NCBI GenBank assembly: GCA_028289125.1
Contig: JAQGGZ010000010.1
Location: 1 to 64,000, forward strand
Reading direction: 5' to 3'
Source: Candidatus Saccharimonadota bacterium
GTDB lineage: Bacteria > Patescibacteriota > Saccharimonadia > Saccharimonadales > UBA4665
DNA: 64,000 bases
Below are positions 2,122 to 62,261 of the stretch, piece by piece. The stretch's first letter is position 1. Every line of letters starts with the position of its first letter. Made by a program: the position numbers and the translations under genes. Below the pieces are notes generated by a model that ran no database searches, was not told the DNA's origin, and saw only the letters and a list, made by a program, of their open reading frames with translations.

Positions 2122-3432
2122 TCAGGTTGTCCAGGGAAACGTTTCCGGTAAATCCCTGTCATGTTGCGGTTCGATATGTAAAGGATGCAGAGCTCTCGTC
2201 CGGTCGATATGGATCAGGGCGTCATAGCGTCGGGGTAGCAGTGTCGGGACGTAGTTGCCGAGACTCTCACGGCGTGGATCGTATACGACCCCGATCGCCC
2301 GGTGGTCTCGTGCCTCCCAGAAACCCTCATACTCCAGCACTTCATAGGACATAATCAACTTGTTATGGGGCATGGCTTCATGCAGCAGTGCCTCCCAGCT
2401 GCCGCTTTGCCCAGGCGGTACCTCGATGATGCGCATCGGGGCATCCCATTGCGCTCCGGCTACCACGGTGCCCTCATAAGTACTAAAGCCGACCAGCACC
2501 GTGTCGTCCTCTGTCTGTGCCTCGCGGACCAGCTGCCCGATATTTACCATGCCGTGGTCGGCCATATCGGTGTAACGTGCGTCGCCAACGTGGGTGTTGT
2601 GGGCCCAGATAATAGCCTTGGCCTCCGGCCCATAGCGCTTCATAAGGTTGCCGAGTGTTTCTACCATATGATTGTCGCGTATATTCCATGAGGCCGCATC
2701 TCCTCTGACCATCGTACGATAATAATGTTCGGCGTTCATGACGGTGCGAGCGTTCTGTTCGGCGTCAAGGTCGGCTTCAAAATCGTCGGCGTACGCTGGG
2801 AACTTTTCCTGTATGAGTCGGAGCACGCGGATAACCTCCTCTTCGCAAGACTTTGGAGCGAAAGCGGTGTGGTAGGCATACAACTGAGGATCATGTCCAT
2901 ACGGTTCAAAGCAGCGGTACGCTTGTTTGGCCTGTTCAGCCGCTTCGGGATCGGTCTTTTCCAGATATTTCACCACCGCGTCTAGCGAATCCCATAGGCT
3001 GTATACATCAAGGCCATAGAAACCGACGCGGTCTTCTAGCGGGCGGCTTGCGTTAAAAGCGTGCAGCCACTCGGCTAACCGTACGATTTCCTTGTTTGCC
3101 CACATCCAAGTCGGCCAGCGTTTGTATCGGCTGAGTACTTCGGTGGCACTGTTGCCGGAATGCGGGTATTGTTTTACGTAGCGGTTCACCTGGTAGCAGT
3201 CCGGCCAGTCGCCCTCGACGGCGATAAATGAGAAACCTTTCTCGGCGATTAACCGCTGGCTGATGCGGCTGCGCCAGGCATAAAACTCGCTGGTGCCATG
3301 CGAGGCTTCGCCCAATAGAACATAGTGTGCTTCACCTATCCGGTTCAGTAGGGCGTCGGTATCCTCCGTCTTGTCCCAAGGACGGGCTACGGTCTCGATT
3401 TCCTGGACGGGATCAGCGACTACGCTGACCAT
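2122..3432 (-). CDS. Erythromycin esterase family protein
   Basis: 436 residues. Motifs of the erythromycin esterase (EreA/EreB-like) family are clear: LLGEASHGTSEF with the candidate catalytic His at residue 45, FIAVEGDWPDCYQVNRY, and IIWAHNTHVGDARYTDM. Known members hydrolyse macrolide lactones, but many genomic members sit beside a phosphoribosyltransferase, as here, and have no proven resistance role. The downstream end of the upstream phosphoribosyltransferase gene overlaps this start by 20 bases. The start has a good AGGAAGT ribosome site five bases upstream. There is no signal peptide. The true substrate is unknown. Confidence 0.85.
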   Translation of the reverse strand: MVSVVADPVQEIETVARPWDKTEDTDALLNRIGEAHYVLLGEASHGTSEFYAWRSRISQRLIAEKGFSFIAVEGDWPDCYQVNRYVKQYPHSGNSATEVLSRYKRWPTWMWANKEIVRLAEWLHAFNASRPLEDRVGFYGLDVYSLWDSLDAVVKYLEKTDPEAAEQAKQAYRCFEPYGHDPQLYAYHTAFAPKSCEEEVIRVLRLIQEKFPAYADDFEADLDAEQNARTVMNAEHYYRTMVRGDAASWNIRDNHMVETLGNLMKRYGPEAKAIIWAHNTHVGDARYTDMADHGMVNIGQLVREAQTEDDTVLVGFSTYEGTVVAGAQWDAPMRIIEVPPGQSGSWEALLHEAMPHNKLIMSYEVLEYEGFWEARDHRAIGVVYDPRRESLGNYVPTLLPRRYDALIHIDRTRALHPLHIEPQHDRDLPETFPWTT

Positions 3433-20321: not shown

Positions 20322-21851
20322 CTACCGGTTCCGGTAGGCTTTGATCAAACGGTTGAGGTCAAGGATGTTGACTATACCGTCACCGTTGATGTCGGCCCGT
20401 GACGTCAAAATCTGTTTGTCTTTGTGGTGATAGTCATTGATCAGGAGGCTGAAGTCCTTGGTGTTGATGATACCGTCGCGGTTGATGTCCTCGGCAGTAT
20501 AGCGGGCGTTCTTGACGGTGAAGGTTACGTCAGCGCTGGTAGAGGTGTTGTTCTTGCTCGAATTGTCGGTCGCGATGACCTTGACCGTGTGTTTGCCGTT
20601 AGCTAGGTTCTTGGTATTGAGGGTGATGCGGTAAGGCGTGTCGTTTTTGGTGAACTTCAGTTTTCCGTCAACGTACAACTGGATTTGCTTGATGCCGCTA
20701 TCGTCATTGGCGGCGACATTGACCGTCAGGTTGCCCGAAACGGTGCTGTCGTTCCGTGGTGCGGTAATGCGTACGGTCGGCGGAGTGGAATCACCGGTGG
20801 TAGCCGTCGCGCTGTTTTGCACGTTCAGGGTCGTAGCTGGGCTCATGGAGCTGTTGCCGACAGCGTCAAAAGCTTTGGCGGAGACCGTGTGGTTGCCGTT
20901 TGACAGCGCCTTCGTATTGACAGAGCTTGCGTAGTTCGGTGCTGTCGGCTGGGTATCTTTCAGCTTGCCGTCGACATAAAATTCAACCTTTTTGACACCG
21001 ATGTTATCAGTGGCTTTGACGGCGACTGCCACGGTTCCGGATACTCGGGAATTGTTAGCAGGAGCCGTGATGGTTACCGTCGGCGCGGTCGTATCGATAC
21101 TGGCGATGGTAAAGCCGATAGTGCTGCTGGTAGCTTTATTGCCAGCCGCATCGTAAGCCCGGGCTGTCAGCTGGTGCGGACCTTTGGCGAGCGTTGCCGG
21201 GTTCAGGCTCATGGCATACGGGCCGTTCGTGTCCGTTGCCTTCAGGGCATTGTCGACGTAAAATTCCACTTTGGTAACGCCAACGTTGTCGCTCGCATTA
21301 GCTGTCACGTTCGTCGTGCTGCGGATCGTAGAATTATTGGCCGGTGCCGTAATGTTGACCGTCGGTGCGACCGCATCGACGCTGTCGATGCAGTTATCGC
21401 CCGTACATGAGAAGTTCTGTGTGGCGATGACGCGATCAACGACAACGCCGTCTATGTTGCCGGCCAATGTAATGGTATGGGTGCCCGTCGTCAGGTTAGT
21501 CTGGGGTATGCTGGCCGGGTTGCCGTTCTGGTAGCCGACCCACGTCCAGGTATTGGCCGGCAATGAGGCGCCGCCCATCTTGATGTTGCAGAGGCTGTTG
21601 TCCACTTGCATGAGGACGGTGTTCTTTGAGCTGGTGGCGGTCTTCATACGGACAAGGAATCGATACGTTCCGGCACTGGAAACCGAAATGCTCGTCGTGA
21701 CAGTGCCACGGTCGGTCGGCAGTGCCGGGCAGGCGGCTGCGACAGTCGGTACGACTCCGCTGGCTATCGAAAATATGGTGATTGCCGGTACGACCAGTAA
21801 AGTCGTTACGATACGACGGTAGGACTTAGAAACGTCTGTTATTGTCATCAT
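20322..21851 (-). CDS. Secreted dockerin protein with CBM-like and Ig-like domains
   Basis: 509 residues. A signal peptide (about residues 1-37) is followed by a jelly-roll domain resembling CBM6/35 (about 40-165, with GTYRFLVRMKT and a closing DGVVVDRVI), then three bacterial Ig-like repeats (about 165-445), each opening PTV-ITAP-N-S and containing VEFYVD or IQLYVD. The C-terminal 59 residues (451-509) are a type I-like dockerin with two calcium loops: DINRDGIINTKD (455-466) and DINGDGIVNILD (487-498). Dockerins bind cohesins, and the gene upstream in the same operon encodes one; the genes overlap by 26 bases. This points to a surface complex that binds polysaccharide. The catalytic partner, if any, is not in this protein. 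Confidence 0.85.
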   Translation of the reverse strand: MMTITDVSKSYRRIVTTLLVVPAITIFSIASGVVPTVAAACPALPTDRGTVTTSISVSSAGTYRFLVRMKTATSSKNTVLMQVDNSLCNIKMGGASLPANTWTWVGYQNGNPASIPQTNLTTGTHTITLAGNIDGVVVDRVIATQNFSCTGDNCIDSVDAVAPTVNITAPANNSTIRSTTNVTANASDNVGVTKVEFYVDNALKATDTNGPYAMSLNPATLAKGPHQLTARAYDAAGNKATSSTIGFTIASIDTTAPTVTITAPANNSRVSGTVAVAVKATDNIGVKKVEFYVDGKLKDTQPTAPNYASSVNTKALSNGNHTVSAKAFDAVGNSSMSPATTLNVQNSATATTGDSTPPTVRITAPRNDSTVSGNLTVNVAANDDSGIKQIQLYVDGKLKFTKNDTPYRITLNTKNLANGKHTVKVIATDNSSKNNTSTSADVTFTVKNARYTAEDINRDGIINTKDFSLLINDYHHKDKQILTSRADINGDGIVNILDLNRLIKAYRNR

Positions 21852-23130
21852 GATACCTTATGTCGTTACCATTATTTTGCGGCGGCTGATTATAAATATC
21901 GTACACCTGGGGCGGTACGCCCGGCTGGCCCTGGTACACTGTCGGGTTTACGGCGGTGTTTGGTGACGCGACTGATTTGCGGAGGCGCAGCCCGAGCGTG
22001 ATGATGACACCGAGGGCAATCAGGATTATGACACCGATGAAGACAAGGCGCAGCCAACCAAGAGACGATGGCTTTACCTCGTATACGACGGAAAATGTCT
22101 GGGTATCAGACGTCTGGGTATTACCATCAGTGGCGACGTTGTCAACGATACTGAGGGTCTGGCTGTACTCTTTTCCACCAGTCTTGAAGACGATGGCTTG
22201 GTTGCCGGGTGATACATCGTTAAAAGTAGCCACGCCTGTCTTGTCTGTCTTGACTTTGAGGGTGGTCGGACCGCGAAGCTCGAGGGTTGTGCGCTTCAGT
22301 GGCTGACGGTTGACATCGTAGGCGGCTACACGAACGGTCAAACCCTTAAGTTTGAACTGGCGCGTTTCGGACTGGGCGGTATTGCCGAAAGCATCCTGGG
22401 TTACGACGGCGTAATTATAAGAGGAACCCGGGACAAGGGCATCGGATCCGAGCGTGATCGTATGGGTGCTGCCGGAATCGGTCAAGGGAGTGGTGTAAAC
22501 CAGTTCGTCCTTGCTGAAACCGTACATGATATAAGCCTGGGCGGCTTGCTTCAGACTGATGCTGATCATGGCCTGGTTATACTTGACGGTCTCTTTAGAA
22601 ATGGCGGCGGGTGTAAGGGAACGGATATTCGATTGACCATCGCTCGGTAATAGGCTCACGGTCGTTCCTGCCGTACCGTAACTCATGGATTCGCCGGCAC
22701 TCGTGGCGTTCGCATCACTGATGCTGATACCGGTAGTGCCATCCGCGACCAGAGCCTTGAAGGCGAGGACTTCAATCAGCGCATCGGTCGAGATAGCGCC
22801 GGTCGTACTCCCGCGTGAAACGTTGATCGTTCCATCGGCCTGCTTCTGTTCTAGCTGTGCATTGAAAGCGGTTCCGCCGAAGGTGGCTTTCAAGAACTGA
22901 AGTTTCGCCGGGTCATACGTGATCTTGGCCTCGACACTATCGATCGAGCCGCCCGGCGTGACCCGGAGTTGGATAATGACGGCATCGCCTTTTTTGGTAC
23001 TGGCCGCCGCCGGTGACAGGTATACTTGCCCGGCCTCAGCCAGCGCCGGGCTCGGTACGCCAAGGCACGCCAGCAATACCCCTGGAGTGATAAGGGCGAA
23101 ACTGAGCGCGAGCTTTAGTATCTTTTTCAT
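21826..23130 (-). CDS. Membrane-anchored cohesin-domain protein
   Basis: 434 residues from the ATG at 23130. A signal peptide (1-31, ending PSPALA) leads into a cohesin fold (about 34-163): QVYLSPAAASTKKGD, then SVEAKITYDPAKLQFL and an IEVLAFKALVADGTTGIS strand. Next are an FN3-like region (about 170-260) and a carboxypeptidase-regulatory-like domain (KTDKTGVATFNDVSPGNQ). One membrane segment follows (357-382), with a 50-residue Pro/Asn-rich tail inside. The protein would display a cohesin on the cell surface. The co-operonic dockerin protein is its obvious ligand. Longer start options exist upstream but extend the signal peptide unnaturally. Confidence 0.85.
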   Translation of the reverse strand: MKKILKLALSFALITPGVLLACLGVPSPALAEAGQVYLSPAAASTKKGDAVIIQLRVTPGGSIDSVEAKITYDPAKLQFLKATFGGTAFNAQLEQKQADGTINVSRGSTTGAISTDALIEVLAFKALVADGTTGISISDANATSAGESMSYGTAGTTVSLLPSDGQSNIRSLTPAAISKETVKYNQAMISISLKQAAQAYIMYGFSKDELVYTTPLTDSGSTHTITLGSDALVPGSSYNYAVVTQDAFGNTAQSETRQFKLKGLTVRVAAYDVNRQPLKRTTLELRGPTTLKVKTDKTGVATFNDVSPGNQAIVFKTGGKEYSQTLSIVDNVATDGNTQTSDTQTFSVVYEVKPSSLGWLRLVFIGVIILIALGVIITLGLRLRKSVASPNTAVNPTVYQGQPGVPPQVYDIYNQPPQNNGNDIRYHDDNNRRF

Positions 23131-23217
23131 GTTTATGTTGACTGTTAATGCTGACTGTATCAGATGATGCATATGCTTGCAAGCCGTTACGGCGTGGTAG
23201 CTGGCGTCCACATGCCA

Positions 23218-27998: not shown

Positions 27999-30872
27999 AT
28001 GCAACGCTACAACCCGAAAGACATCGAGCCGAAATGGCAGCAGCGCTGGGCTGCGGACAAGATTTATCAGGCCGTCGATTTTGACGACAAACCAAAGTAC
28101 GTCATGTTGACGGAGTTCCCATATCCGTCAGGCACCGGTATCCATCTGGGTCACGCCCGTGAATATACGTACGGTGACATCATGGCCCGGCACAAACGCA
28201 TGCAAGGATATAACGTCCTGTATCCCATGGGTTACGACGCCTTCGGTCTGCCGACTGAAAACTACGCGATCAAAAATAAGGTAACCCCGCAGTCCGCTAC
28301 TGATACCAACGTCGCCAACTTTCAGAAGCAGCTCGAACAACTGGGCTACAGCTTTGACTGGAGCCGTAGCTTCCGCACGAGCGACCCTGAGTATTACCGC
28401 TGGACTCAGTGGCTGTTCCTGAAATTCTTTGAAGCCGGTCTGGCCTATCAGGCTGAGATCGCCATCAATTGGTGTCCGTTCGAAAAGACCGGGCTCGCTA
28501 ATGAAGAAGTGGTCAATGGTCGCCACGAACGCTGTGACACTCCCGTCGAAAAGAAATTATTGAAGCAGTGGTTACTAAGGATTACTGATTACGCCGACCG
28601 TCTGATCGATGGGTTGCAGGATGTTGACTACCCGAGCCGCATCGCCGATCAGCAGATCCACTGGATCGGCCGCAGCCGGGGTGCCGAAGTCAGCTTTGCC
28701 ATCGACGGCCATGATGATGTCATTAACGTCTTCACGACCCGACCCGACACGATATTCGGCGCGACTTTCTTAGTTCTGGCCCCCGAACACGCCCTCGTCG
28801 ACGATATCGTCACGCCTGGCCAAAAAGCAGCCGTCCACACGTACGTCAAAGCAGCCATGGCCAAGAGCGATGTCGAGCGGCAGGATACCGACCGCCAGAA
28901 AACAGGCGTATTTACCGGGGCCTATGCACGTAACCCCGCTACCGACGAACTCATACCGATCTGGGTAGCCGACTATGTGCTGCACGGTTACGGCACCGGG
29001 GCCATCATGGCAGTGCCGGCACACGACGAGCGCGATAATGAATTCGCCAGCAAGTTCGAGCTGCCGATCATACCGGTCGTTGCTCCGGTCTTGCAGGAGT
29101 ATGTACCTGATACCACGCCCCGACCAACGGTCGTGGTTCTGGCCCGTGACCCTCATACTGACACGTACTGCGTCCTCAATTGGCGTGAGAATACTGCCTA
29201 CAAGCCGCAGGGTATAGAGTTTCCGGGCGGCGGCATAGATGACGGGGAAGCGCCTGAAGAAGCCGCCCGACGTGAATTCAGCGAAGAGACCGGTTACACC
29301 GACATCACTATCGACCGGATCATCCCGGCCTCGACGTTGTCACATTACGTCAGCGAAAAAGGGCCTCGCCGAGCTGTTCGGACGATCGTCTTGGCCACTG
29401 TTAACTCGATGGCCGCCAATGGCGTCGTCGGCACCGAAGAGTATGAAAAAGACGCCTACGATATCCAGTGGCTAACCAAAGAGCAGATCATGGAGCAGGC
29501 TGATAACCAATGGCAGACCGTCGCCCGGCTGGCCTTTGAAAGCAGCATTTATACCGGTGAAGGCCGAATGGTTAACTCCGGGATCTATGACGACATGACT
29601 ACCAGTGAAGCTCGCGAACAGATCGTGACTGACCTGGTTGAAAAAGGCGTCGCCAAAGAGCGCGTGACGTACCGTCTGCGTGACTGGGTCTTCAGCCGAC
29701 AGCACTACTGGGGTGAACCGATACCTATCATCCACTGCCCAGAGCATGGCGCCGTAGCCGTGCCGGATGATCAGCTGCCGGTCACGCTGCCCCCGGTCGA
29801 TCACTACGAACCGACCGACACCGGCGAAAGCCCGCTGGCTGCCATTACCGATTGGGTCAACACGACCTGTCCGACCTGTGGCGGTCCTGCCAAGCGCGAG
29901 ACGGACACCATGCCCAACTGGGCCGGTTCTTCCTGGTATTATCTACGGTATTTCGATGCTCACAATGACCAGGCGTTTGCCGACCGTGCCAAATTGAACT
30001 ACTGGGGTGCCGTCGATATGTATCTCGGCGGCATGGAGCATACCACGCTCCACCTGTTGTATTCCCGTTTTTGGCACCAGTTCCTGTTTGATCAGGGCTT
30101 ACTGCCGACGCCCGAACCGTATGTGGCCCGTCGCGGTCAGGGAATTGTCCTCGCCGCTGACGGCACCAAGATGAGTAAGAGCAAGGGCAATATTGTCAAT
30201 CCGACCGAAGTCATCGATAGCGGGTACGGCGCTGACGCACTGCGTATCGCGATCGCGTTCCTGGCACCATATGATCAGACGACGCCTTGGGGCCCCGAGG
30301 GCGTAGCGGGAACGTACCGGTTCTTGCAGCGTATCTGGACGCTGGTGCAGGACTTTGATACGTCCGCCGTATCTGATCAGGAGCCACCGATTGAGATATT
30401 GCGCCCGTTGCACCGCACGATAAAGAAAGTGTCCCAGGATTTGCAGGAGATGAGCTTTAATACGGCCGTCGCATCGCTGATGCAGCTGGTCAATGACCTC
30501 TATAAAGTGAAGGCCGAAGTACCGTTGACCGACGGTGTATGGCGGCAACCGCTGGCGACGCTCGTCCAGCTAGTGGCGCCGTATGCACCGCACATGGCTG
30601 AAGAATTATGGCAGCAGCTCGGTAATGAAGGTTCGGTTCATGTCAGCGCCTGGCCGGTCCATGAAGAAAAGTATCTGCAGTCCGAGACGGTCACCATAGT
30701 GGTCCAGGTAAACGGTAAGGTTCGCGCTCAGCTTAAGCTGCCGGTGGGTCAGTCCGAAGCAGACGTTTTGACCGCCGCGCAGGCCGAATCGGGGGTCCAG
30801 GCTCAGCTCGCCGGCAAAGAAATCAAGAAGCAGATTTATATCGCCGACAAGTTGTTAAATCTGGTCGTTTGA
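27999..30872 (+). CDS. leuS: Leucine-tRNA ligase with inserted NUDIX domain
   Basis: 957 residues. Class I motifs: PYPSGTGIHLGHARE (HLGH at 49-52) and TKMSKSKGN (KMSKS). The CP1 editing domain has TTRPDTIFGAT (246-256) and AHDERD (341-346). A NUDIX domain is inserted at about residues 375-515, right after the AHDERD strand where ordinary LeuRS continues; its NUDIX box (411-433) fits GX5EX7REUXEEXGU exactly, including REFSEETGY. The rest of CP1 resumes at GRMVNSGIY. A C-terminal VQVNGKVRAQLKLP domain is present. LeuRS charges tRNA-Leu; the NUDIX domain could hydrolyse a nucleotide made during editing or starvation, but its substrate is unknown. Confidence 0.9.
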   Translation: MQRYNPKDIEPKWQQRWAADKIYQAVDFDDKPKYVMLTEFPYPSGTGIHLGHAREYTYGDIMARHKRMQGYNVLYPMGYDAFGLPTENYAIKNKVTPQSATDTNVANFQKQLEQLGYSFDWSRSFRTSDPEYYRWTQWLFLKFFEAGLAYQAEIAINWCPFEKTGLANEEVVNGRHERCDTPVEKKLLKQWLLRITDYADRLIDGLQDVDYPSRIADQQIHWIGRSRGAEVSFAIDGHDDVINVFTTRPDTIFGATFLVLAPEHALVDDIVTPGQKAAVHTYVKAAMAKSDVERQDTDRQKTGVFTGAYARNPATDELIPIWVADYVLHGYGTGAIMAVPAHDERDNEFASKFELPIIPVVAPVLQEYVPDTTPRPTVVVLARDPHTDTYCVLNWRENTAYKPQGIEFPGGGIDDGEAPEEAARREFSEETGYTDITIDRIIPASTLSHYVSEKGPRRAVRTIVLATVNSMAANGVVGTEEYEKDAYDIQWLTKEQIMEQADNQWQTVARLAFESSIYTGEGRMVNSGIYDDMTTSEAREQIVTDLVEKGVAKERVTYRLRDWVFSRQHYWGEPIPIIHCPEHGAVAVPDDQLPVTLPPVDHYEPTDTGESPLAAITDWVNTTCPTCGGPAKRETDTMPNWAGSSWYYLRYFDAHNDQAFADRAKLNYWGAVDMYLGGMEHTTLHLLYSRFWHQFLFDQGLLPTPEPYVARRGQGIVLAADGTKMSKSKGNIVNPTEVIDSGYGADALRIAIAFLAPYDQTTPWGPEGVAGTYRFLQRIWTLVQDFDTSAVSDQEPPIEILRPLHRTIKKVSQDLQEMSFNTAVASLMQLVNDLYKVKAEVPLTDGVWRQPLATLVQLVAPYAPHMAEELWQQLGNEGSVHVSAWPVHEEKYLQSETVTIVVQVNGKVRAQLKLPVGQSEADVLTAAQAESGVQAQLAGKEIKKQIYIADKLLNLVV

Positions 30873-41379: not shown

Positions 41380-43266
41380 TTAATTTCTTACCAGGCCGAG
41401 TGCGTAATCAGCCCACCAGGCGCCTGCCGAAGGACCGCCGTTACAAGTGCCGTCAGATTCGCCAGGAATCTTGATCCACAGGAAAGCATCAACATTGGCT
41501 TGCCCGGTGCTGAGTGTCGGCGCTTGACCGATGGCCCGGCCTGACGGGTTACAGAACTGACCGTTAGTGCCGTTGCCGTTACGGCTAGTGTCGACGACGA
41601 ACGGTTTGTGGACCATGGCGTTCAGCTTGTTGCCGTAGGCGACTTCAGACGATGTGGAATTGAAGTTAGAGACGTTGAGTGCGAAACCGCTGGCTTTGGC
41701 GATGCCGGCTTGCTGTAAACGGCCTCCCATGTCGTCAACGCCTACCCAGGTGCTGTTACCGGCATCCAGGTATACAAGCGCACCCTGGGCACTCAATGTC
41801 GTGACAGCCTCGCTGAGCATCTGGTAGCGGCTTTGTTTGTCGAGCGCTGACAGACAATCATTGAGTGCAAGTGCGTCCGGCTCGAGTATTACGATGGCCT
41901 TATGACCACCTAGACCGCTGGCGAAAGCACTGACCCACTGGCTGTAGGCAGCGCTGTTGGCTGACCCGCCGGCGGAGTAACTGCCGCAGTCACGGTTTGG
42001 TATGTTATAAGCGACGAGGATAGGAACCTTGCTGCCGGCAGCGTTGACGTATGAACGGACGGCAGCGCTGACATCACCGCTCCAGTCACCGAACCACTTG
42101 GCGGTCGGCTGATTGGCGATCTTAGCCAAAAGGTTGGCGTCCTGCGGTCGGCTGTTTTTCCAGGCGGCGACCTGTTGGGCGGCTGCGGTATTCGGGTCAA
42201 CGTACAGTGAAGCGGACACCAGATTGTTGACGCTGTTGGCTACAGCGTTCGCTTCTGCGCCGGCGGCCGCAGCACTTGATTTGGCCGCGACAGAAGCGGC
42301 CGCGGTAGGCGCTGCGACGGCAGTCTCAGGAGTGCCGACACCAAAGGTTAAAGTGTCGAGGCGTAAATTGCGGTCACAAATGTCGTGGGCATCATTAGTA
42401 AAGGCGACCGAGACAGTGTGATCACCCGCCGTGATGGCCACTGGAATGCTGTAGTTACGCCAGGCGGCGCTATCGACGGCAATGGTGGTGAGAGCCTTGC
42501 CGTCAAGACTGACGACCATGGTGGCAGCGCCTTGGCAAAGGTCTGCCTTGGCCCGTATGATGATTTGATTGCTGGCTGGCGCTGCGTATTGATTGCTGAC
42601 GGTTGCATTCGTCCAAACCAGAAGAGCTGTGCCGCCGCGGGCGTCACTGTCTTCGTAGCCCGCTCCGGCCCAGTTCGGTAAATCGTTCGCGGAGAAATCA
42701 AAACTGTTCTGAGGCTGCGTAGACGGAGCTGGAGTGATAGCGTTAGCTTGCAGCGCGACATCATCCATATAGAAGGTCGGTTGAGTCTGTCCGGTCGTGT
42801 CCTGTAATACCAGGCCGTTCAGGGAATTGCTGGCCAGTCGCAGGGCACTGAGTGGCACGGTGTATATGCGCCAGCCGTCATTGCTGATATTGGCGGTCAC
42901 GTAGTCTTTGAGCTCGACGCTCTGGCTGGGCTGCCAGTTCTGGTCGAATCCGTATAAGCGCATGCTGGTAGGACTGCTGGTTTTCAACTTGAACTGGATG
43001 GAATTATACGGGCTCGTCGGAACTGCCCTGTCAGTGTGCAGGTACAGCCCGAACCAGCCGGTGCTCGGCGTGAAAGCGATCTGGTTGTCCTGCACGCCAA
43101 GCTGACCGCTCCACGACCAGTTGGTCCAGTCATTCTGAAACTGATCAGTAAAGACGGCGTAGTTGGTCGATGGCTCGGCTTCGGCGCGAGTCAAAATAGC
43201 CAGCGGGATGCCCAGGCTGGCTACAAGAGTAAGAGCTAAGATTGCGATTTTTGTTCGGAAGCGCAT
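41380..43266 (-). CDS. Secreted GH6 cellulase with two carbohydrate-binding modules
   Basis: 628 residues. A signal peptide (1-30) is followed by a jelly-roll module (about 38-175) and a second binding module resembling CBM60 (about 205-310, with RAKADLCQGAATMVVSLDG). An Ala-rich linker (315-345) leads to the GH6 domain (350-628). Family motifs are LVAYNIPNRDCGSYSAGG (Asp426), IVILEPDALALND (Asp464), FVVDTSRNGNGTN and WIKIPGESDGTC. GH6 enzymes cut beta-1,4-glucan with inversion. GAGGACCGAC precedes the ATG. It is in the same direction as the degenerate regulator and is the larger of two GH6 enzymes in the window. Confidence 0.9.
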   Translation of the reverse strand: MRFRTKIAILALTLVASLGIPLAILTRAEAEPSTNYAVFTDQFQNDWTNWSWSGQLGVQDNQIAFTPSTGWFGLYLHTDRAVPTSPYNSIQFKLKTSSPTSMRLYGFDQNWQPSQSVELKDYVTANISNDGWRIYTVPLSALRLASNSLNGLVLQDTTGQTQPTFYMDDVALQANAITPAPSTQPQNSFDFSANDLPNWAGAGYEDSDARGGTALLVWTNATVSNQYAAPASNQIIIRAKADLCQGAATMVVSLDGKALTTIAVDSAAWRNYSIPVAITAGDHTVSVAFTNDAHDICDRNLRLDTLTFGVGTPETAVAAPTAAASVAAKSSAAAAGAEANAVANSVNNLVSASLYVDPNTAAAQQVAAWKNSRPQDANLLAKIANQPTAKWFGDWSGDVSAAVRSYVNAAGSKVPILVAYNIPNRDCGSYSAGGSANSAAYSQWVSAFASGLGGHKAIVILEPDALALNDCLSALDKQSRYQMLSEAVTTLSAQGALVYLDAGNSTWVGVDDMGGRLQQAGIAKASGFALNVSNFNSTSSEVAYGNKLNAMVHKPFVVDTSRNGNGTNGQFCNPSGRAIGQAPTLSTGQANVDAFLWIKIPGESDGTCNGGPSAGAWWADYALGLVRN

Positions 43267-53294: not shown

Positions 53295-53409
53295 AGCCTA
53301 TGGCTACGCTAACGCCAAGTACAACAACCATGAGCGTCATGCGGATGCCAGCCATGAACACGCTCAAGCTTGACATATCTTCTTACTCGTAGTGATAATA
53401 ACAATAGTT

Positions 53410-54447
53410 ATGAGACGTCGTCGAGTAATCATCACCATCGGTATATTTTTGTTCATGGTGGCCGGAGTCGGCCTGACAGTTGCGGCCCTGACAAGGCGTG
53501 ATCTGACGCCGGCCCAGAACCCGTTACTTGGCAAGACCTTATATGTGGATTCGAACAGGGTGGCGAATAAGACAGCTCAGCAATATCGGGCTGATAATGA
53601 CATCACGAACGCCATGTATATGGAACGTATCTCGGACCGCCCTGGCACCACTTGGTTGATCGGGCCGTCCGCCTCTGATCCGAAAGCTGATCATGATATC
53701 GCAATGGTGGCCCGTACTTCGGCCGAAGCGTATAACCAAGGGGCCGTTCCGGTATACGAGATGTATGCCATTCCTGGTCGGGACGCGTGTGCCGGTTATT
53801 CCAAGAGTGGCTTTCAGACGAGCGACGATTATCTGGCCTGGGTCGATCGCATCTTGGCGGCTACCAAACAGCCTGCCGTCTTCAGCGTCGAAGCCGATGC
53901 TATCGCACAGACCATCCATGACAGCTGTCTGACGCAAAAACAAATCGCTGACCGGTATCAGTTGCTAGAGGCGACAATGAAAAAGCTGTCTATGTCGCCG
54001 ATGGTGCTGGCGGCCTATTTGGACGCCGGTCATTCGGAATGGTTTCCGGATCCGACCGCCCTGGTGGGGCCGCTTGAACGCTCCGGTGTGAGCTATGGCC
54101 GGGGCATAGCGGTCAACGTATCGTTCTTCGTGCCGACATCCGACGCCGTCTTATGGTCACAGAAACTGCTCAATATGATCGGTGGCAATAAAGCGGCGAT
54201 CATCGACACCAGTCGCAACGGCAAAGGCGCTCCCGACCCGTCGATTAAGGGCGACGAGCGTTGGTGCAATCCGGAAGGCCGTGGCCTGGGCGATGTGCCG
54301 ACGACTGATACGAAAGCGAATAACATCGATGCTTTTGTGTGGATAAAGAACGTTGGTGAAAGTGATGGCAGTTGCAACGGTTATCCGACCGCCGGGACAT
54401 TCGTTCCTGAACTGGCCATCGATTTAGCCCGCAACGCTAAGGAGTAA
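53410..54447 (+). CDS. Membrane-anchored GH6 endoglucanase (CslZ-like)
   Basis: 345 residues from the ATG at 53410. One N-terminal membrane helix (IITIGIFLFMVAGVGLTVA) anchors it, without a cleavage site, and there is no binding module. GH6 motifs: YEMYAIPGRDACAGY (Asp125), FSVEADAIAQT (E161, D163), AAIIDTSRNGKGAPD and WIKNVGESDGSCNG. The usual EPD triplet reads EAD. It hydrolyses beta-1,4-glucan near the membrane. It is convergent with the copper-radical oxidase gene (11 bases of overlap), as expected if it trims the glycan made by the neighbouring synthase, like CslZ in Streptomyces. Confidence 0.85.
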   Translation: MRRRRVIITIGIFLFMVAGVGLTVAALTRRDLTPAQNPLLGKTLYVDSNRVANKTAQQYRADNDITNAMYMERISDRPGTTWLIGPSASDPKADHDIAMVARTSAEAYNQGAVPVYEMYAIPGRDACAGYSKSGFQTSDDYLAWVDRILAATKQPAVFSVEADAIAQTIHDSCLTQKQIADRYQLLEATMKKLSMSPMVLAAYLDAGHSEWFPDPTALVGPLERSGVSYGRGIAVNVSFFVPTSDAVLWSQKLLNMIGGNKAAIIDTSRNGKGAPDPSIKGDERWCNPEGRGLGDVPTTDTKANNIDAFVWIKNVGESDGSCNGYPTAGTFVPELAIDLARNAKE

Positions 54448-56422
54448 CTTGTATCATTTTGGCGACGGACGGGGTGCCGTTCGTGTTGGTTACGAACAGC
54501 ATGTACCAGCCGTTGCTCATCACGTTCTCATCAGTCGGCAACTCAATAGTGACGGTATTACCGTCATGCTTGACGATGGCGCCAAGCGAGCGCTGCTCGA
54601 TATTCGTGACATGCGTCGTCGTACTGGGTGCGATCAATCGGGCGGTCTTTATGCTGCCGGCATCGGTCGACGTGAAGGTCAGGGTTTGGCCACGGTGCGC
54701 CTGCGTGTCATTGTTACCGTTCAAAGTCGGGCGGGCGCCACGGTATAACTGGGGCGGCGTGTAGATCTCCATACGCTGTTCAAATTTACCTGGCTGGGTG
54801 TTGTCCTTGTCGGAGTACAGCGGGTCGTTGCCGAAAACCAGGATACGGCTATCAGGCAGCAGCAGTGAGCCGGAGTGATAGCTTCGGCCTACCAGTGAAT
54901 CGGCCATCATTTCCATTTGGTTGGTGGTGGGGTTCAACATGGCGGCTTTATAGTTATAGCTGTTTTCCTTGCCGCGGTAATCACTTGAACCACCGGAGAT
55001 GAAAAGTTCGTCCCAAGGGGTGACCGAAACGTTCGGGTAACGGACGGCTGCCGGTAAACCGGGTCCGGCTTTGTACGACGGGTTGTCGCTGGCCAGATCG
55101 ATGACATCGGTACGGGCCGTCACGAGAGGGGATTCACCGACGCCACCACCTCCCAAGATCATGATTCGAGAGCTTTGGCTAGCATCGTTCGATCCGGCAG
55201 TCGGCGGCAGGACGACGGACGCACTCGTCTCGGCGATATTGGTATCACGCAGGCCGGTGACGGTCCTGAATGAGTTGGTCTTGACGTTCCAGAACCCCGG
55301 TACGCGGCCTTTATCGGCCGGCCCGTAGCCAGCGCTAGAACCTGAGAAGAACAGTACGTCAGGATCTTGCGTCCGGAACAGTGCCGGATAGGTCGGGAAA
55401 GCCTGATCCGGGCCCCAAGACCAGGCCTTGGTGGCCGGGTCATACCGTTCAGTCGTATCAGTAATCTGGCCGGTGTTGTCGAGACCTGATACCGCGAGAA
55501 CGTCCCCGTTGGTCATGACCGGCAGGGTCGGGTACCAGCGGCTTTCTTTCATGTCACCGACACGCACGTAAGCCTCTTTGACCGGATCGAATTCATACGC
55601 CCGGTTGTCGCCACGGTAATCCTGCTTGTTTAGGGTCATCGGTCCGCCCTGGCCGTAGATGTTATGTACGTCGTCACCCTTCAGACCGACGATGTCGTAA
55701 TGCTCATTGCTGCTCGTGATGTACGAAGTATCTTCGGCGACGGCTTCGACGAACACGGTGACCGAGCTATGGGTGATCATGATACTCCCGTCGTCATGCT
55801 CCATCTTTGTAGCGGGCTGGACGACGATATCCTGGGTTGAAACATAGACCTTTCCGTCCGGTCCGGTGAATCGGGTGCCTTTATTGAACGAGCGCGCCTT
55901 TCCGTCCGGATTCTCGTTATGGATGATCATAGCGCCGGCCGGTTTCTTGACGTCACCTTCAAGTAATTCATAGCCGCTCGTGCCACCGGCCACTAAGACT
56001 TTACCTGATTGCAGCAGGGCATGGCCGCTACAGAACAGATCGCTCGGAGTCGGTATGATCTTCACCTCCATCGTCGTCGGGTCAAGCACGGCAGTCTTGA
56101 GGACGCTGATCATGTCATTATTATTAAACTCGTTGAAGCTGTCCCGGTTATTACCCGAGCCGGCCACGAGCAGTACTTTGCCAGTCGGTAGCAGGGCTGC
56201 ATGAATGGTGTTGAGGCGGAACGCCTCCGGAAGGTTGATAATGTCCCATTTGCCACGGCTGCTTAAGTAATCCGGTGCATTGATGATTTGGTTATGGTGC
56301 CATTCGGCGACAGCCGGCACCGACAAAGGCGACGAGGCTGCCAGTAGCGCGATGACCGTGCTGACGAATAAGGTAAACGGTTGCCCCCGGCGTGCCGTTC
56401 TGACCGGATTGTCTTTACGCAT
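54437..56422 (-). CDS. Copper-radical oxidase, GlxA/galactose oxidase family (AA5)
   Basis: 661 residues. A signal sequence or signal anchor lies at 16-40. Kelch-type repeats and a C-terminal DUF1929 Ig-like domain (about 555-660) follow the galactose/glyoxal oxidase plan. All predicted radical-copper residues are there: Cys131 in FCSGHALL, Tyr297 in SRWYPTLP, Tyr515-His516 in GRSYHSGSL and His604 in TTTHVTNIEQR. An extra stretch of about 110 residues lies between Cys131 and Tyr297 compared with Streptomyces GlxA (from memory). The enzyme would oxidise a primary alcohol of the glycan to an aldehyde using oxygen, making peroxide. It overlaps the glycan synthase gene by eight bases; GGAGG precedes the ATG. 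Confidence 0.85.
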   Translation of the reverse strand: MRKDNPVRTARRGQPFTLFVSTVIALLAASSPLSVPAVAEWHHNQIINAPDYLSSRGKWDIINLPEAFRLNTIHAALLPTGKVLLVAGSGNNRDSFNEFNNNDMISVLKTAVLDPTTMEVKIIPTPSDLFCSGHALLQSGKVLVAGGTSGYELLEGDVKKPAGAMIIHNENPDGKARSFNKGTRFTGPDGKVYVSTQDIVVQPATKMEHDDGSIMITHSSVTVFVEAVAEDTSYITSSNEHYDIVGLKGDDVHNIYGQGGPMTLNKQDYRGDNRAYEFDPVKEAYVRVGDMKESRWYPTLPVMTNGDVLAVSGLDNTGQITDTTERYDPATKAWSWGPDQAFPTYPALFRTQDPDVLFFSGSSAGYGPADKGRVPGFWNVKTNSFRTVTGLRDTNIAETSASVVLPPTAGSNDASQSSRIMILGGGGVGESPLVTARTDVIDLASDNPSYKAGPGLPAAVRYPNVSVTPWDELFISGGSSDYRGKENSYNYKAAMLNPTTNQMEMMADSLVGRSYHSGSLLLPDSRILVFGNDPLYSDKDNTQPGKFEQRMEIYTPPQLYRGARPTLNGNNDTQAHRGQTLTFTSTDAGSIKTARLIAPSTTTHVTNIEQRSLGAIVKHDGNTVTIELPTDENVMSNGWYMLFVTNTNGTPSVAKMIQVTP

Positions 56423-58238
56423 GCTGGACCTCCTCCGTCCTTAATGATTTACGGAAATTCAATGTGCGCAGCCGGTCAGGAATTGCAACAGCCAGACCGA
56501 GTGCCATGGGTGCGATACAGACAAGGCAGAGTACACCTACCCAGACCAACATGGCGGGGTGTTCCCGGCCGCGTTGCAAGCCATAGGTGAGGCCAAGGGC
56601 TAAAACGGCGGCCCAATGCCCGTGACTTTTGAAAGTCGGCAACCAGTCGGGATTATCGTTTGACCCCTTAGTCGTAACTACGAAATGAGGCTTTCGCCCG
56701 ACGGTAATACCGATCAGGGCTGAGAGATAAATCGGTGCGGTCAGGCTGGAAATGACCATGCCGGCAACGCCATATGAGCCACTCGGCTCATGCGGCGAGA
56801 CATTGTATCGGCGGTTCCAGAAGTATAGGCTCAGTTGCATCACGAGTGTCATCAGGTAGAGGGCAATGAACGCCCCCCACGGCGCCAACACGGCCGTGGC
56901 ACCCCATATCAGATAAATCATGCTGCTGGTCACGGCCAGGAGCCACGTCAGGGCGGTCATCGGATAATACGTTAACATTAAGAAGTAATGGAGCATGGCC
57001 TTGGGAGATAGTTTCCAGAATATGCGCCAGACGACACGCCGCCAGGTATCGAACGTGCCGGCAGCCCAGCGCCATTGCTGGGTAAAGTAGGGTGCCCAGA
57101 AGTTCGGCCCTTCGCCGATAGCGAGCACGTCCGGCGTGTAGACGGATCGCCAGCGCTGGCCGGTGTCAGGGTTGGCGGAACTGTGTATGGCCAGACCGGT
57201 AGCCATGTCTTCGGTAATACACGGCTGGAATCCACCGATTTGTTTGAGCGTGGCAAATCGGACGGCGTAGTTGGTGCCGACGAACATGGCCGAGCGAGAA
57301 GCGTTACCGGCACGCTGAATCGTACTTTGAAAGAATGAGGCTTGCGACTCGGCCCAACGGGCAACCAGACCTTTCAGGCCCGGGCCATAATTGCCGTATA
57401 CCTGTGGTCCGACGACGTATGCGACGTCCGGATCGCGGAAATAACCAAGAAGACGGTTGAGGTAGTTCGGCAATGGTACTTGATCGGTGTCGACGCCGGC
57501 CAGGATATCGTATTCGATGCCCGTCAGGCGCAGGTAGTCCATCCAGGAGTTTATATTGCCGTGTTTAGAGCGGGCGGCGTAGAAACGATCGGTCGTCGGC
57601 TTGGGCCGACGCAGCAGCCGGTCCTGCCAGCGATACGTCGTTTCGGCAGTGTTCCAGCAGGCTATCCCGGCGCGGCTGAAATGATGCACTCCCAGCTTAT
57701 CGCAGATAGCCTCAATCTCTGGGTCGTCGGTTTCATCCAGCAACCAGACGTCGACGGTGCCGCTACGATATCGGATGCGCTTGGCGGCTGCCAGTGTCGT
57801 CTCGACCATACTGGCTGGTTCGCCCGGCGCCCTGGTCGTGATAAAGGCAACCCGCAGATTTCGCGGAGGTGCGACCGGCACCGGGTCCTTTGCTTTGATC
57901 GTGGAACGGGTAGCGGAAAATGTGCCGATAATAGTGAACAGCTGCAAGAGCATCAGGCAGATTAGCATTATCAAGTTTGCAAAATGCGTCGAAGAATCGG
58001 GGTTCTGGACGATGATCCAGTGAGAAGGCCAGAACAGCACGAGGCAAAAGCAAAGCGTTATAATAAAGGCGCCGTAGGACAAGATGTAGAGCCACGCCCG
58101 GTAAAAGTAGTTATCGTCACGGCTCACCGGGACGAAACGCACACGATATGACTCATACCTAGGAACCTTGTCAAATTTTCCAGCAAGTTGGCTAAAATGC
58201 CTGAGTTGGCGGGTGAGCTTGGGTCCAGCTATCTTCAT
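56415..58238 (-). CDS. Processive beta-glycan synthase (CslA-like, GT2)
   Basis: 607 residues. About seven membrane segments surround a GT2 domain with the processive synthase set: DETDD (168-172), VDTDQ (D250/D252), TED (342-344) and QQWRW (387-391). This is the cellulose synthase-like group, which polymerises a nucleotide sugar and moves the chain through the membrane. There is no C-terminal PilZ domain, so c-di-GMP control as in BcsA is not expected. The overlapping downstream gene is the copper-radical oxidase. The product is probably a beta-glucan but the sugar cannot be read from sequence. The upstream region is 140 bases of AT-rich DNA with no Shine-Dalgarno. Confidence 0.9.
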   Translation of the reverse strand: MKIAGPKLTRQLRHFSQLAGKFDKVPRYESYRVRFVPVSRDDNYFYRAWLYILSYGAFIITLCFCLVLFWPSHWIIVQNPDSSTHFANLIMLICLMLLQLFTIIGTFSATRSTIKAKDPVPVAPPRNLRVAFITTRAPGEPASMVETTLAAAKRIRYRSGTVDVWLLDETDDPEIEAICDKLGVHHFSRAGIACWNTAETTYRWQDRLLRRPKPTTDRFYAARSKHGNINSWMDYLRLTGIEYDILAGVDTDQVPLPNYLNRLLGYFRDPDVAYVVGPQVYGNYGPGLKGLVARWAESQASFFQSTIQRAGNASRSAMFVGTNYAVRFATLKQIGGFQPCITEDMATGLAIHSSANPDTGQRWRSVYTPDVLAIGEGPNFWAPYFTQQWRWAAGTFDTWRRVVWRIFWKLSPKAMLHYFLMLTYYPMTALTWLLAVTSSMIYLIWGATAVLAPWGAFIALYLMTLVMQLSLYFWNRRYNVSPHEPSGSYGVAGMVISSLTAPIYLSALIGITVGRKPHFVVTTKGSNDNPDWLPTFKSHGHWAAVLALGLTYGLQRGREHPAMLVWVGVLCLVCIAPMALGLAVAIPDRLRTLNFRKSLRTEEVQHA

Positions 58239-58376
58239 CTATCGTGCGCTTTATTTACATTAGTACGTTATCCACCTAATTATGTAACTTGTACTATAGT
58301 CGAAGCGGCGAGCGCTGTCTATATTAATCTATATATTTGCACAAATGACAAATTTAAGCATAAGCGCGATAAAAAC

Positions 58377-60236: not shown

Positions 60237-62261
60237 ATGCGAAAAGAATTCATGAAGTTTAATACGCGTTATCTGACACAGACCATCTTTGTCTTGGTGT
60301 TTGGCATGGTAGGCGTCAGTGCTTTGATAATCTCGCATGCCGCCTCATCTACAGTGGCGACTGAAGCCGAAAACGGTACGCTTTCTAATTGTGTCACCAA
60401 AGTAAAAGACGCTTCGGCTTCGGGTGGAACGGCCGTTCAGTTCGGCACCTGTGCGCCGAGCGCCGGCGGCAACCCACCAGCCGGCGGGGGCACCACCAGC
60501 CCGGTAGGCAGTAGCTCCGGCCCTGGGGCCCACCTGCCGATTTCGTACAGCTTGTCGTCTTTGACAGGAACGGTGCGTTATGTGGCCACCAATGGCTCGG
60601 ACACAAACCCGGGGAGCGCGAAAGCTCCGTTCGCCACGCTCTCGAAGGCGATCAGTGCGTCAGCTGCTAACGACTCCATAGTCGTCCGGGGCGGTACGTA
60701 TCGTATCGGCAACCTTGCAGTTAGTAAGAGTCTGAAAATTTACGCTTACCCAGGTGAAATACCTGTTTTTAACGGGGCTCAGAGCTTCGCCAGCGGCTGG
60801 ACGACAAGCGGCAGCCTATCCTCACACTCATACGCACCGAAAGCTGCCACCGACGGAAGTGGCATCTCGTTCACTGGCGGACAGAATCTAAGTGGTGATG
60901 GCGTCGGTAAATACCCCGATCAGGCGTGGGTTGGCGGGAGTCAGTTGAAGCAGGTCAGCTCACAAGCAGCTGTTACGGCTGGTAAGTTCTATGTCGACCG
61001 GACCGCCAAGCGGATATATCTGGCGGCCAGTGACGTCAGCAAAGGTGGGGTAGAGGCTTCGGACAAAAACGTATTCATGAGCATCTCGGCGGCTAACACC
61101 GTCCTCCGCGGCCTGACGATTACCCGTTACTCGAACGGTGGCGCCGACTACGGCATCATCAATATCACGGGTAATGCTGACTCGTCGCTGCTGCAGGACG
61201 ACGTCATATCGGATGCCGCTTTCATCAGCGTTGCCTACCAAGGCAATAGCAACACGAACGCCAATGGCACGATGCGTAATGTGACCGTCACATCATCCAA
61301 CTGGATGGGCGTGAGTGCGACCTATACCGACAACCTTACCCTGGATGGCGTCAAACTGGTGAATATGAATCAGTTCAACGAGTTCACTTACTCACCGCAG
61401 TCCGGTGGACTTAAGACGAGCCGTACGACATTCACCAAGGTTATCAATAGCGATATCAGCAATAATAAAAGCCACGGCCTGTGGTTCGATCAGAGCAACT
61501 ACCATGTCGAAGTCGCCAACAACACGATTCTCGATAATGCTGGCAGCGGGATGTTCTTTGAAATTTCAGACAACTTGTGGCTGGTTAACAATTACATCCG
61601 TTCCACTGGCGGTGCCAGGGCGGTCAAGCTGGCAGGCTCTTCCGGCATGAATCTAATTAACAATACGATCATCGGCGGAGCCGATCCGATCGGCGTGTAT
61701 GTCGATAACCGCTCATTGCCAGGTTGTTCTGACCCGGCGCGTGCTCTCTGCGCGGGATCATATAACAGTGACCGTGATTCTGTCCGGGCACACCGCGCGA
61801 CGATGACGTGGGTGCCGAGTATCGATATAATGATCAACAATATTGTGGCGTACCCGACAGCCGCCGGTTATTGCGGTACCACGACCGGCTTGTGCATCAC
61901 GTCCAGTAACGCGACCGCTAAAGTCGGGCTTAACACGGTCATCCACAAGGCGGCCGGTGGCCGTCCGCTCACACAGATGAACGGTAACGTGTATGCCAAC
62001 GGCAGCGGCAAGATTATCAATACCGCTTCGGGCAATTTCACGACGACAGCCGCATTCATGAACGCAATGGCCGGAGCCCCGGTAGGCATCGGTGGCATCG
62101 AATCTGCCGGTTTGTCTGGCAATACGTATGTCGCGGCTGACGGCAAGCCGACGGCAGCGCTCACAGCTGTTCATAGCAAGGCGGTTGCCATTCCGGGCAA
62201 TGCGACTATCAACCAGTATGTGGCGGCCGGTACCCGCCATTACGGCGTCACTTACAAGTAA
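60237..62261 (+). CDS. Secreted right-handed beta-helix protein with CBM6-like N-terminus
   Basis: 674 residues; an ATG five codons later (60252) is an equally good start since neither has a clear ribosome site. A signal peptide or anchor covers about 1-40. The next part (TEAENGTLSNC, then ASGGTAVQFGTC) is a short CBM6-like element. A Gly/Pro/Ser linker follows, then a beta-helix starting RYVATNGSDTNPGSAKAPFATLSKA, a DUF1565-type opening, with Asn-ladder turns (NNTILDNAGSGMFF, LVNNYIR, NLINNTIIGG). Such folds belong to polysaccharide lyases and hydrolases. No catalytic residues can be named. It probably acts on, or binds, an external polysaccharide. Confidence 0.8.
   Translation: MRKEFMKFNTRYLTQTIFVLVFGMVGVSALIISHAASSTVATEAENGTLSNCVTKVKDASASGGTAVQFGTCAPSAGGNPPAGGGTTSPVGSSSGPGAHLPISYSLSSLTGTVRYVATNGSDTNPGSAKAPFATLSKAISASAANDSIVVRGGTYRIGNLAVSKSLKIYAYPGEIPVFNGAQSFASGWTTSGSLSSHSYAPKAATDGSGISFTGGQNLSGDGVGKYPDQAWVGGSQLKQVSSQAAVTAGKFYVDRTAKRIYLAASDVSKGGVEASDKNVFMSISAANTVLRGLTITRYSNGGADYGIINITGNADSSLLQDDVISDAAFISVAYQGNSNTNANGTMRNVTVTSSNWMGVSATYTDNLTLDGVKLVNMNQFNEFTYSPQSGGLKTSRTTFTKVINSDISNNKSHGLWFDQSNYHVEVANNTILDNAGSGMFFEISDNLWLVNNYIRSTGGARAVKLAGSSGMNLINNTIIGGADPIGVYVDNRSLPGCSDPARALCAGSYNSDRDSVRAHRATMTWVPSIDIMINNIVAYPTAAGYCGTTTGLCITSSNATAKVGLNTVIHKAAGGRPLTQMNGNVYANGSGKIINTASGNFTTTAAFMNAMAGAPVGIGGIESAGLSGNTYVAADGKPTAALTAVHSKAVAIPGNATINQYVAAGTRHYGVTYK

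Follow-up and report, generated by a model that had tools for sequence, protein, structure and literature searches.

A likely CslA-GlxA-CslZ-type cellulose synthesis locus in a small Saccharibacteria genome

Within the 64,000-nucleotide stretch of Saccharibacteria DNA that we analysed (the window), three linked genes encode a cslA-like GT2 synthase, a radical copper oxidase of the GlxA type and a GH6 beta-1,4-glucanase, and we consider it likely that they form a cellulose synthesis locus of the CslA-GlxA-CslZ type, with CslA-GlxA exporting a beta-1,4-glucan that the membrane-anchored GH6 enzyme trims. This type of locus is known from Streptomyces, but its occurrence in the present lineage is new and apparently undescribed; our literature search, limited in its evidence and covering few subscription papers, returned no report of a cellulose synthase or of GlxA in Saccharibacteria. 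The gene content of the locus, its motifs, linkage and recurrence, and the polyphyly of its copies are matters of direct observation.

The window lies within a contig of 205 kb (C8) belonging to a genome of 874 kb (G000) that is 89% complete with 0.5% contamination. The partial 16S rRNA gene of this genome (G000:C2, L142; Rfam RF00177) carries exact sites for TM7-580F, TM7-305 and TM7-905 (three of three, no mismatch), and the assignment of the host to Saccharibacteria is thereby borne out.

All three reading frames are open and, together with their overlaps and key residues, lie exactly where an earlier sequence-only reading had placed them (Table 1). The cslA and glxA genes share eight bases (56415-56422), with a Shine-Dalgarno-like GGAGGAGG immediately 5' of the glxA ATG, and the 3' ends of the GH6 gene and glxA share 11 bases (54437-54447), confirming the convergent arrangement proposed before for a membrane-anchored GH6 enzyme. 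The GH6 gene was taken to start at the ATG at 53410; an in-frame GTG lies 18 bases upstream. Elsewhere in the window, a right-handed beta-helix protein of 674 aa with a signal-like N-terminus lies near the trio (60237-62261, +), two adjacent genes (20322-23211, -) encode a cohesin domain (21826-23211) and Ig repeats with a dockerin domain (20322-21851), possibly a small surface cohesin-dockerin pair, a leucyl-tRNA synthetase (27999-30872, +) has an internal NUDIX domain match at residues 374-503, and an erythromycin esterase family protein (PF05139, 3e-121) is encoded at 2122-3432 (-).

Table 1. Genes of the locus and candidate promoters, in window coordinates.
Feature	Coordinates	Strand	Remarks
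cslA-like GT2 synthase	56415..58238	-	607 aa, membrane protein, ORF intact
glxA radical copper oxidase	54437..56422	-	661 aa, ORF intact
cslZ-like GH6 beta-1,4-glucanase	53410..54447	+	ORF intact, convergent with glxA
Candidate promoter, cslA-glxA operon	58293..58321	-	TAGACA-17-TATAGT, 10/12 consensus; from a scan alone, no proof of function
Candidate promoter, GH6 gene	53370..53399	+	TTGACA-18-GATAAT, 11/12 consensus; from a scan alone, no proof of function

The synthase matches the GT2 models PF13632 and PF13641, and its score of 82 bits against the CelA model TIGR03030, although far under the cut-off of 699, compares with only 20 bits against NodC. BcsA proteins were its only solved relatives in a PDB search (4e-18). 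The hallmarks of a processive GT2 synthase noted in the earlier reading are present as DTD250-252, TED342-344 and QQWRW387-391, and are joined by a gating loop, FVVTTK519-524. When compared with actinobacterial CslA proteins adjoining GlxA, the window protein scored 426-519 bits (phmmer), and it fell among actinobacterial CslA in a tree that contained no chitin or hyaluronan synthase. From its profile and motif matches the protein is a BcsA-like rather than a chitin-type synthase, and the alternative affiliation with chitin or hyaluronan synthases that had been considered found no backing in the profile scores or among the solved structures. No PilZ domain was found in CslA, at its C-terminus or elsewhere; the c-di-GMP response of the Streptomyces enzyme goes with a partial PilZ domain (RxxxR).

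The oxidase passes the NCBI curated equivalog model for GlxA, NF052501, with 829.7 bits (cut-off 800). It is predicted to be membrane-anchored and to comprise the GlxA barrel domain 2 (residues 161-258; PF21110, 1e-26), a kelch propeller and a galactose oxidase-like E-set domain. The nearest solved relative by sequence is S. lividans GlxA (PDB 4UNM, 8e-189), and this was also the top Foldseek match of the AlphaFold model (TM 0.74-0.75 on the query, 46% identity, mean pLDDT 72), which was predicted from an alignment of Streptomyces, Kitasatospora and Pseudonocardia rows only. Since the copper-site loops are of low confidence in this model, we assessed the site by alignment to 4UNM instead, which pairs Cys131 of the window protein with Cys121 of S. 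lividans GlxA and Trp296/Tyr297 with Trp288/Tyr289. Cys121 and Trp288 are both named for the S. lividans enzyme (PMC4736821, PMC13094651). Cys131, the stacking Trp296 with the equatorial Tyr297, the axial Tyr515 with His516, and the second histidine, His604, are invariant in an alignment of eight Saccharibacteria and five actinobacterial GlxA proteins, which upholds the earlier claim of a copper-radical oxidase with all of its predicted metal and radical residues and, by the 4UNM alignment, with the residues of a Tyr-Cys centre kept. The window protein is 48-49% identical to Streptomyces GlxA, and in the tree it sits with GlxA, apart from galactose oxidase-like proteins. An identity as a GlxA-type radical copper oxidase is thus supported by these comparisons. 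The fungal and bacterial galactose and glyoxal oxidases (AA5 and relatives) have the same kelch propeller, E-set domain and Tyr-Cys copper site, but the window protein differs from them in possessing GlxA domain 2 and in clustering with GlxA.

Two other groups of proteins were considered as GlxA and excluded. Kelch proteins of 850-890 aa (in G099, G353, G260 and G363) fall into a galactose-oxidase-like clade of their own, and 13 weak matches in the order cover the barrel domain only (profile positions near 149-250). One of the latter that we examined has a baseplate-J-like domain at the same place, and we take these matches to be a domain-level resemblance rather than GlxA. Proteins of about 550 aa with a weak GlxA-barrel or baseplate-J-like match occur both in the order and in the wider phylum (L013-L025, for example L016:748-2379).

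The GH6 protein of the trio matches PF01341 (6.9e-48), and its best PDB relative is the GH6 cellulase 1uoz (1.7e-51). Both catalytic-motif aspartates, Asp125 (RD) and Asp163 (EAD) in numbering from the ATG, are conserved. At the N-terminus the lipobox AGC of Streptomyces CslZ is replaced by AGV, for which reason we call the gene cslZ-like; with no lipobox cysteine and a single N-terminal anchor, the protein likely keeps an uncleaved membrane anchor rather than being a lipoprotein. In the GH6 tree it groups with the copies of G146 and G085 (100/100), co-inherited with GlxA. A single clade of this GH6 with Streptomyces CslZ is neither supported nor rejected (p=0.38). Of the Streptomyces-like identity proposed in the sequence-only reading, the gene arrangement, CslA and GlxA have stood, with the GH6 enzyme a possible ortholog of CslZ. 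The window also encodes a second, secreted GH6 protein of 628 aa with a CBM60 (41380-43266, -), 10 kb from the trio; its closest relative in G146, at 54% identity, adjoins the trio of that genome.

The locus recurs within the order. GlxA was found in eight of 393 genomes, spread over four families, so that there are seven further carriers where the earlier reading had asked whether relatives share the trio. It is near full-length in six (G000, G363, G146, G183, G085 and G125) and shorter, lacking domain 2, in two; these short forms (G101, L036:7967-9529; G244, L037:3036-4631) are about 520-530 aa long, keep the copper-site residues and lie beside CslA and GH6. CslA adjoins GlxA in all seven carriers with flanking sequence, the G085 contig ending before cslA. 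A GH6 gene is present within 0.7 kb of the locus in seven of the eight carriers, convergent in six and missing from G183. The order CslA then GlxA with a convergent GH6 is found again in G146, G125, G101 and G244, G085 fits as far as its contig goes, and the G363 layout is rearranged, with GH6 upstream of cslA and divergent. Across the order GH6 occurs in seven of eight GlxA carriers vs 13 of the 385 other genomes (p=2e-9, uncorrected for kinship, the carriers belonging to four families). The linkage of the trio is no chance assembly. In an alignment scan of named genomes the best 80 matches were all from Actinobacteria, and 70 of the 80 actinobacterial loci retrieved show exactly the arrangement of CslA, GlxA and convergent GH6; searching named genomes with the protein P0002 on its own gave no match. 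GlxA exceeded the NF052501 cut-off in seven genomes of a 297-genome Actinomycetota sample, and searches of plasmids returned outgroups only.

The phylogeny called for by the earlier reading does place the Saccharibacteria copies with actinobacterial CslA and GlxA, and adds that these copies are of more than one origin. The window GlxA forms one clade with those of G146 and G085 (100/100), the GlxA of G363 and G183 groups with Pseudonocardia (99/96), and the CslA of G363 and G183 does so again (95/99). A single clade of all Saccharibacteria copies is rejected on the concatenated data (AU p=0.0013), and the trees carry signs of exchange of the trio genes with Actinobacteria, which probably passed between the two groups more than once. 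How many transfers there were, and which way they went, is uncertain given the long branches of G125 and G183. The G000 and G146 loci have no flanking genes in common, and the genes that flank the G363 locus sit about 20 kb from the trio in the window; these differing surroundings fit a cassette that settled at different sites. Cultivated Saccharibacteria live on Actinobacteria. If one supposes instead that the genes were inherited vertically within Saccharibacteria and widely lost, the patchy presence over four families could reflect that loss, and the long branches leave some room for it; yet the AU test, the different flanks of the G000, G146 and G363 trios and the finding of no full-length GlxA elsewhere in the sampled Patescibacteria (287 genomes of the phylum) all speak against this history, which we judge improbable. 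That faulty assembly or binning placed actinobacterial DNA in a Saccharibacteria genome is harder still to credit, although the closest trio relatives beyond the order are actinobacterial. At 0.62-0.68, the GC3 of the trio is the same as in neighbouring genes and far from the 0.96 of Streptomyces, which indicates resident, long-adapted DNA; the contig is long and the bin barely contaminated; the window GlxA clades with other members of the order; and trio relatives are found on contigs of 1.0-1.3 Mb within the order, including a 1.1 Mb contig, from a 98% complete genome, that encodes GlxA and CslA with 65% identity. Contamination as the source of the trio is rejected.

Biochemical work on Streptomyces gives these genes their probable meaning. 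The S. lividans CslA-GlxA pair synthesises cellulose in vitro, with GlxA required and c-di-GMP increasing activity without being indispensable; the in vitro product is plain cellulose, the physiological substrate of GlxA is still open, and the authors of this 2024 study raise mixed sugars as possible (PMC11022532). CslZ is a membrane-bound GH6 enzyme that, with the LPMO LpmP, lets the glucan through the wall, and it also acts on chitin and peptidoglycan (PMC9040799). Copper is required for GlxA to mature, and when it is scarce Sco and DtpA assist (PMC4736821). The window shares with the Streptomyces locus the synthase, an oxidase over the GlxA cut-off and the GH6 enzyme, their active-site motifs, the overlapping cslA-glxA pair and the convergent GH6. 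It differs in its host, a Saccharibacteria genome of 0.87 Mb, in the transmembrane anchor of its GH6 where CslZ has a lipobox, in a CslA without the long N- and C-terminal tails, and in two insertions of seven residues in GlxA (near 102 and near 410). Comparison with the Gram-negative bcsA-bcsB-bcsZ and clostridial ccs systems shows a common plan, in which a GT2 synthase with DxD, TED, QxxRW and a gating loop is accompanied by a partner outside the cytoplasm and by a cellulase, but here the partner is a radical copper oxidase rather than BcsB, the cellulase is GH6 and there is no PilZ domain. The usual BcsZ family differs from GH6.

Accessory functions on which Streptomyces relies seem to be missing. 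Neither LPMO10 (LpmP; PF03067) in G000, a genome 89% complete, nor DtpA (DyP peroxidase; PF04261) in any of the eight carrier genomes gave a match, and GGDEF genes, found in 143 of the 393 genomes of the order, are no more associated with carriers (3/8) than with the others (140/385), so that only the core of the system seems to be left. We rejected c-di-GMP control as an explanation of the distribution of the locus on the same counts. G000 itself encodes, in its 874 kb, a lone GGDEF protein with an intact motif (L125:1264-2013; G000:C5). Since CslA has no PilZ domain and GGDEF does not track the locus, dependence of the window CslA on c-di-GMP looks doubtful and its regulation must presumably differ from that in Streptomyces. 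For substrate supply the genome holds a GalU-like gene, with a score under the equivalog cut-off.

By analogy with the Streptomyces enzymes, from which we infer that a complex forms, what it makes and what each protein does, the GalU-like enzyme would supply UDP-glucose, which CslA would polymerise to beta-1,4-glucan and pass across the membrane. GlxA, an enzyme that needs O2, would be anchored next to CslA, become a Tyr-Cys radical enzyme on maturation by copper, and serve as a partner that the complex cannot do without; it may in addition oxidise an extracellular substrate. The membrane-anchored GH6 would trim or release the glucan or clear its path through the wall. It is possible, though a good deal less probable, that CslA makes another or mixed beta-linked polymer (with galactose or amino sugar units, for example) whose primary alcohols GlxA oxidises. 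The full set of radical-copper residues, the mixed sugars suggested for Streptomyces and the activity of CslZ on chitin and peptidoglycan would accommodate such a polymer, but cellulose is the only product demonstrated for a pair of this kind and the synthase scores far better on cellulose synthase models than on NodC. The oxidised glycan put forward in the sequence-only reading accordingly stands here as a hypothesis, as does its proposed service in attachment to a host or surface. The presence of the secreted GH6-CBM60 protein 10 kb away means that the trio GH6 might serve degradation instead, and one could extend this to a set in which GlxA provides H2O2, both GH6 enzymes break down cellulose of plants or microbes and CslA is incidental. 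The cohesin-like and dockerin-like proteins and the 13 genomes with GH6 and no GlxA could be read in this way. We think this very unlikely, given that GlxA, full-length or short, is always beside CslA wherever the flank is present, that the cslA and glxA frames overlap or nearly abut in G000 and others, and that G000 gave no LPMO match. Cellulose synthesis by CslA-GlxA is the reading we prefer.

Published accounts of CslA-GlxA cellulose synthesis present it as a conserved trait of streptomycetes, linked to growth at the hyphal tip. The presence of the pair in tiny, probably epibiotic bacteria means that it is kept far from filamentous growth, and the short natural GlxA variants of two carriers could show which parts the complex needs. 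That such small, dependent bacteria may make a cellulose-like surface coat or adhesive is something we purely infer, from the Streptomyces analogy. Saccharibacteria live on Actinobacteria as hosts, and one may speculate, with considerable reserve, that they repeatedly took up an actinobacterial cellulose synthase and its oxidase, dropped LpmP and DtpA, and would use a host-type glucan coat to attach to their hosts or to pass as them. The locus suggests, as a hypothesis, that a surface polymer takes part when Saccharibacteria encounter their actinobacterial hosts, and the movement of a surface-glycan operon between the two groups would itself be testable evidence of their contact.
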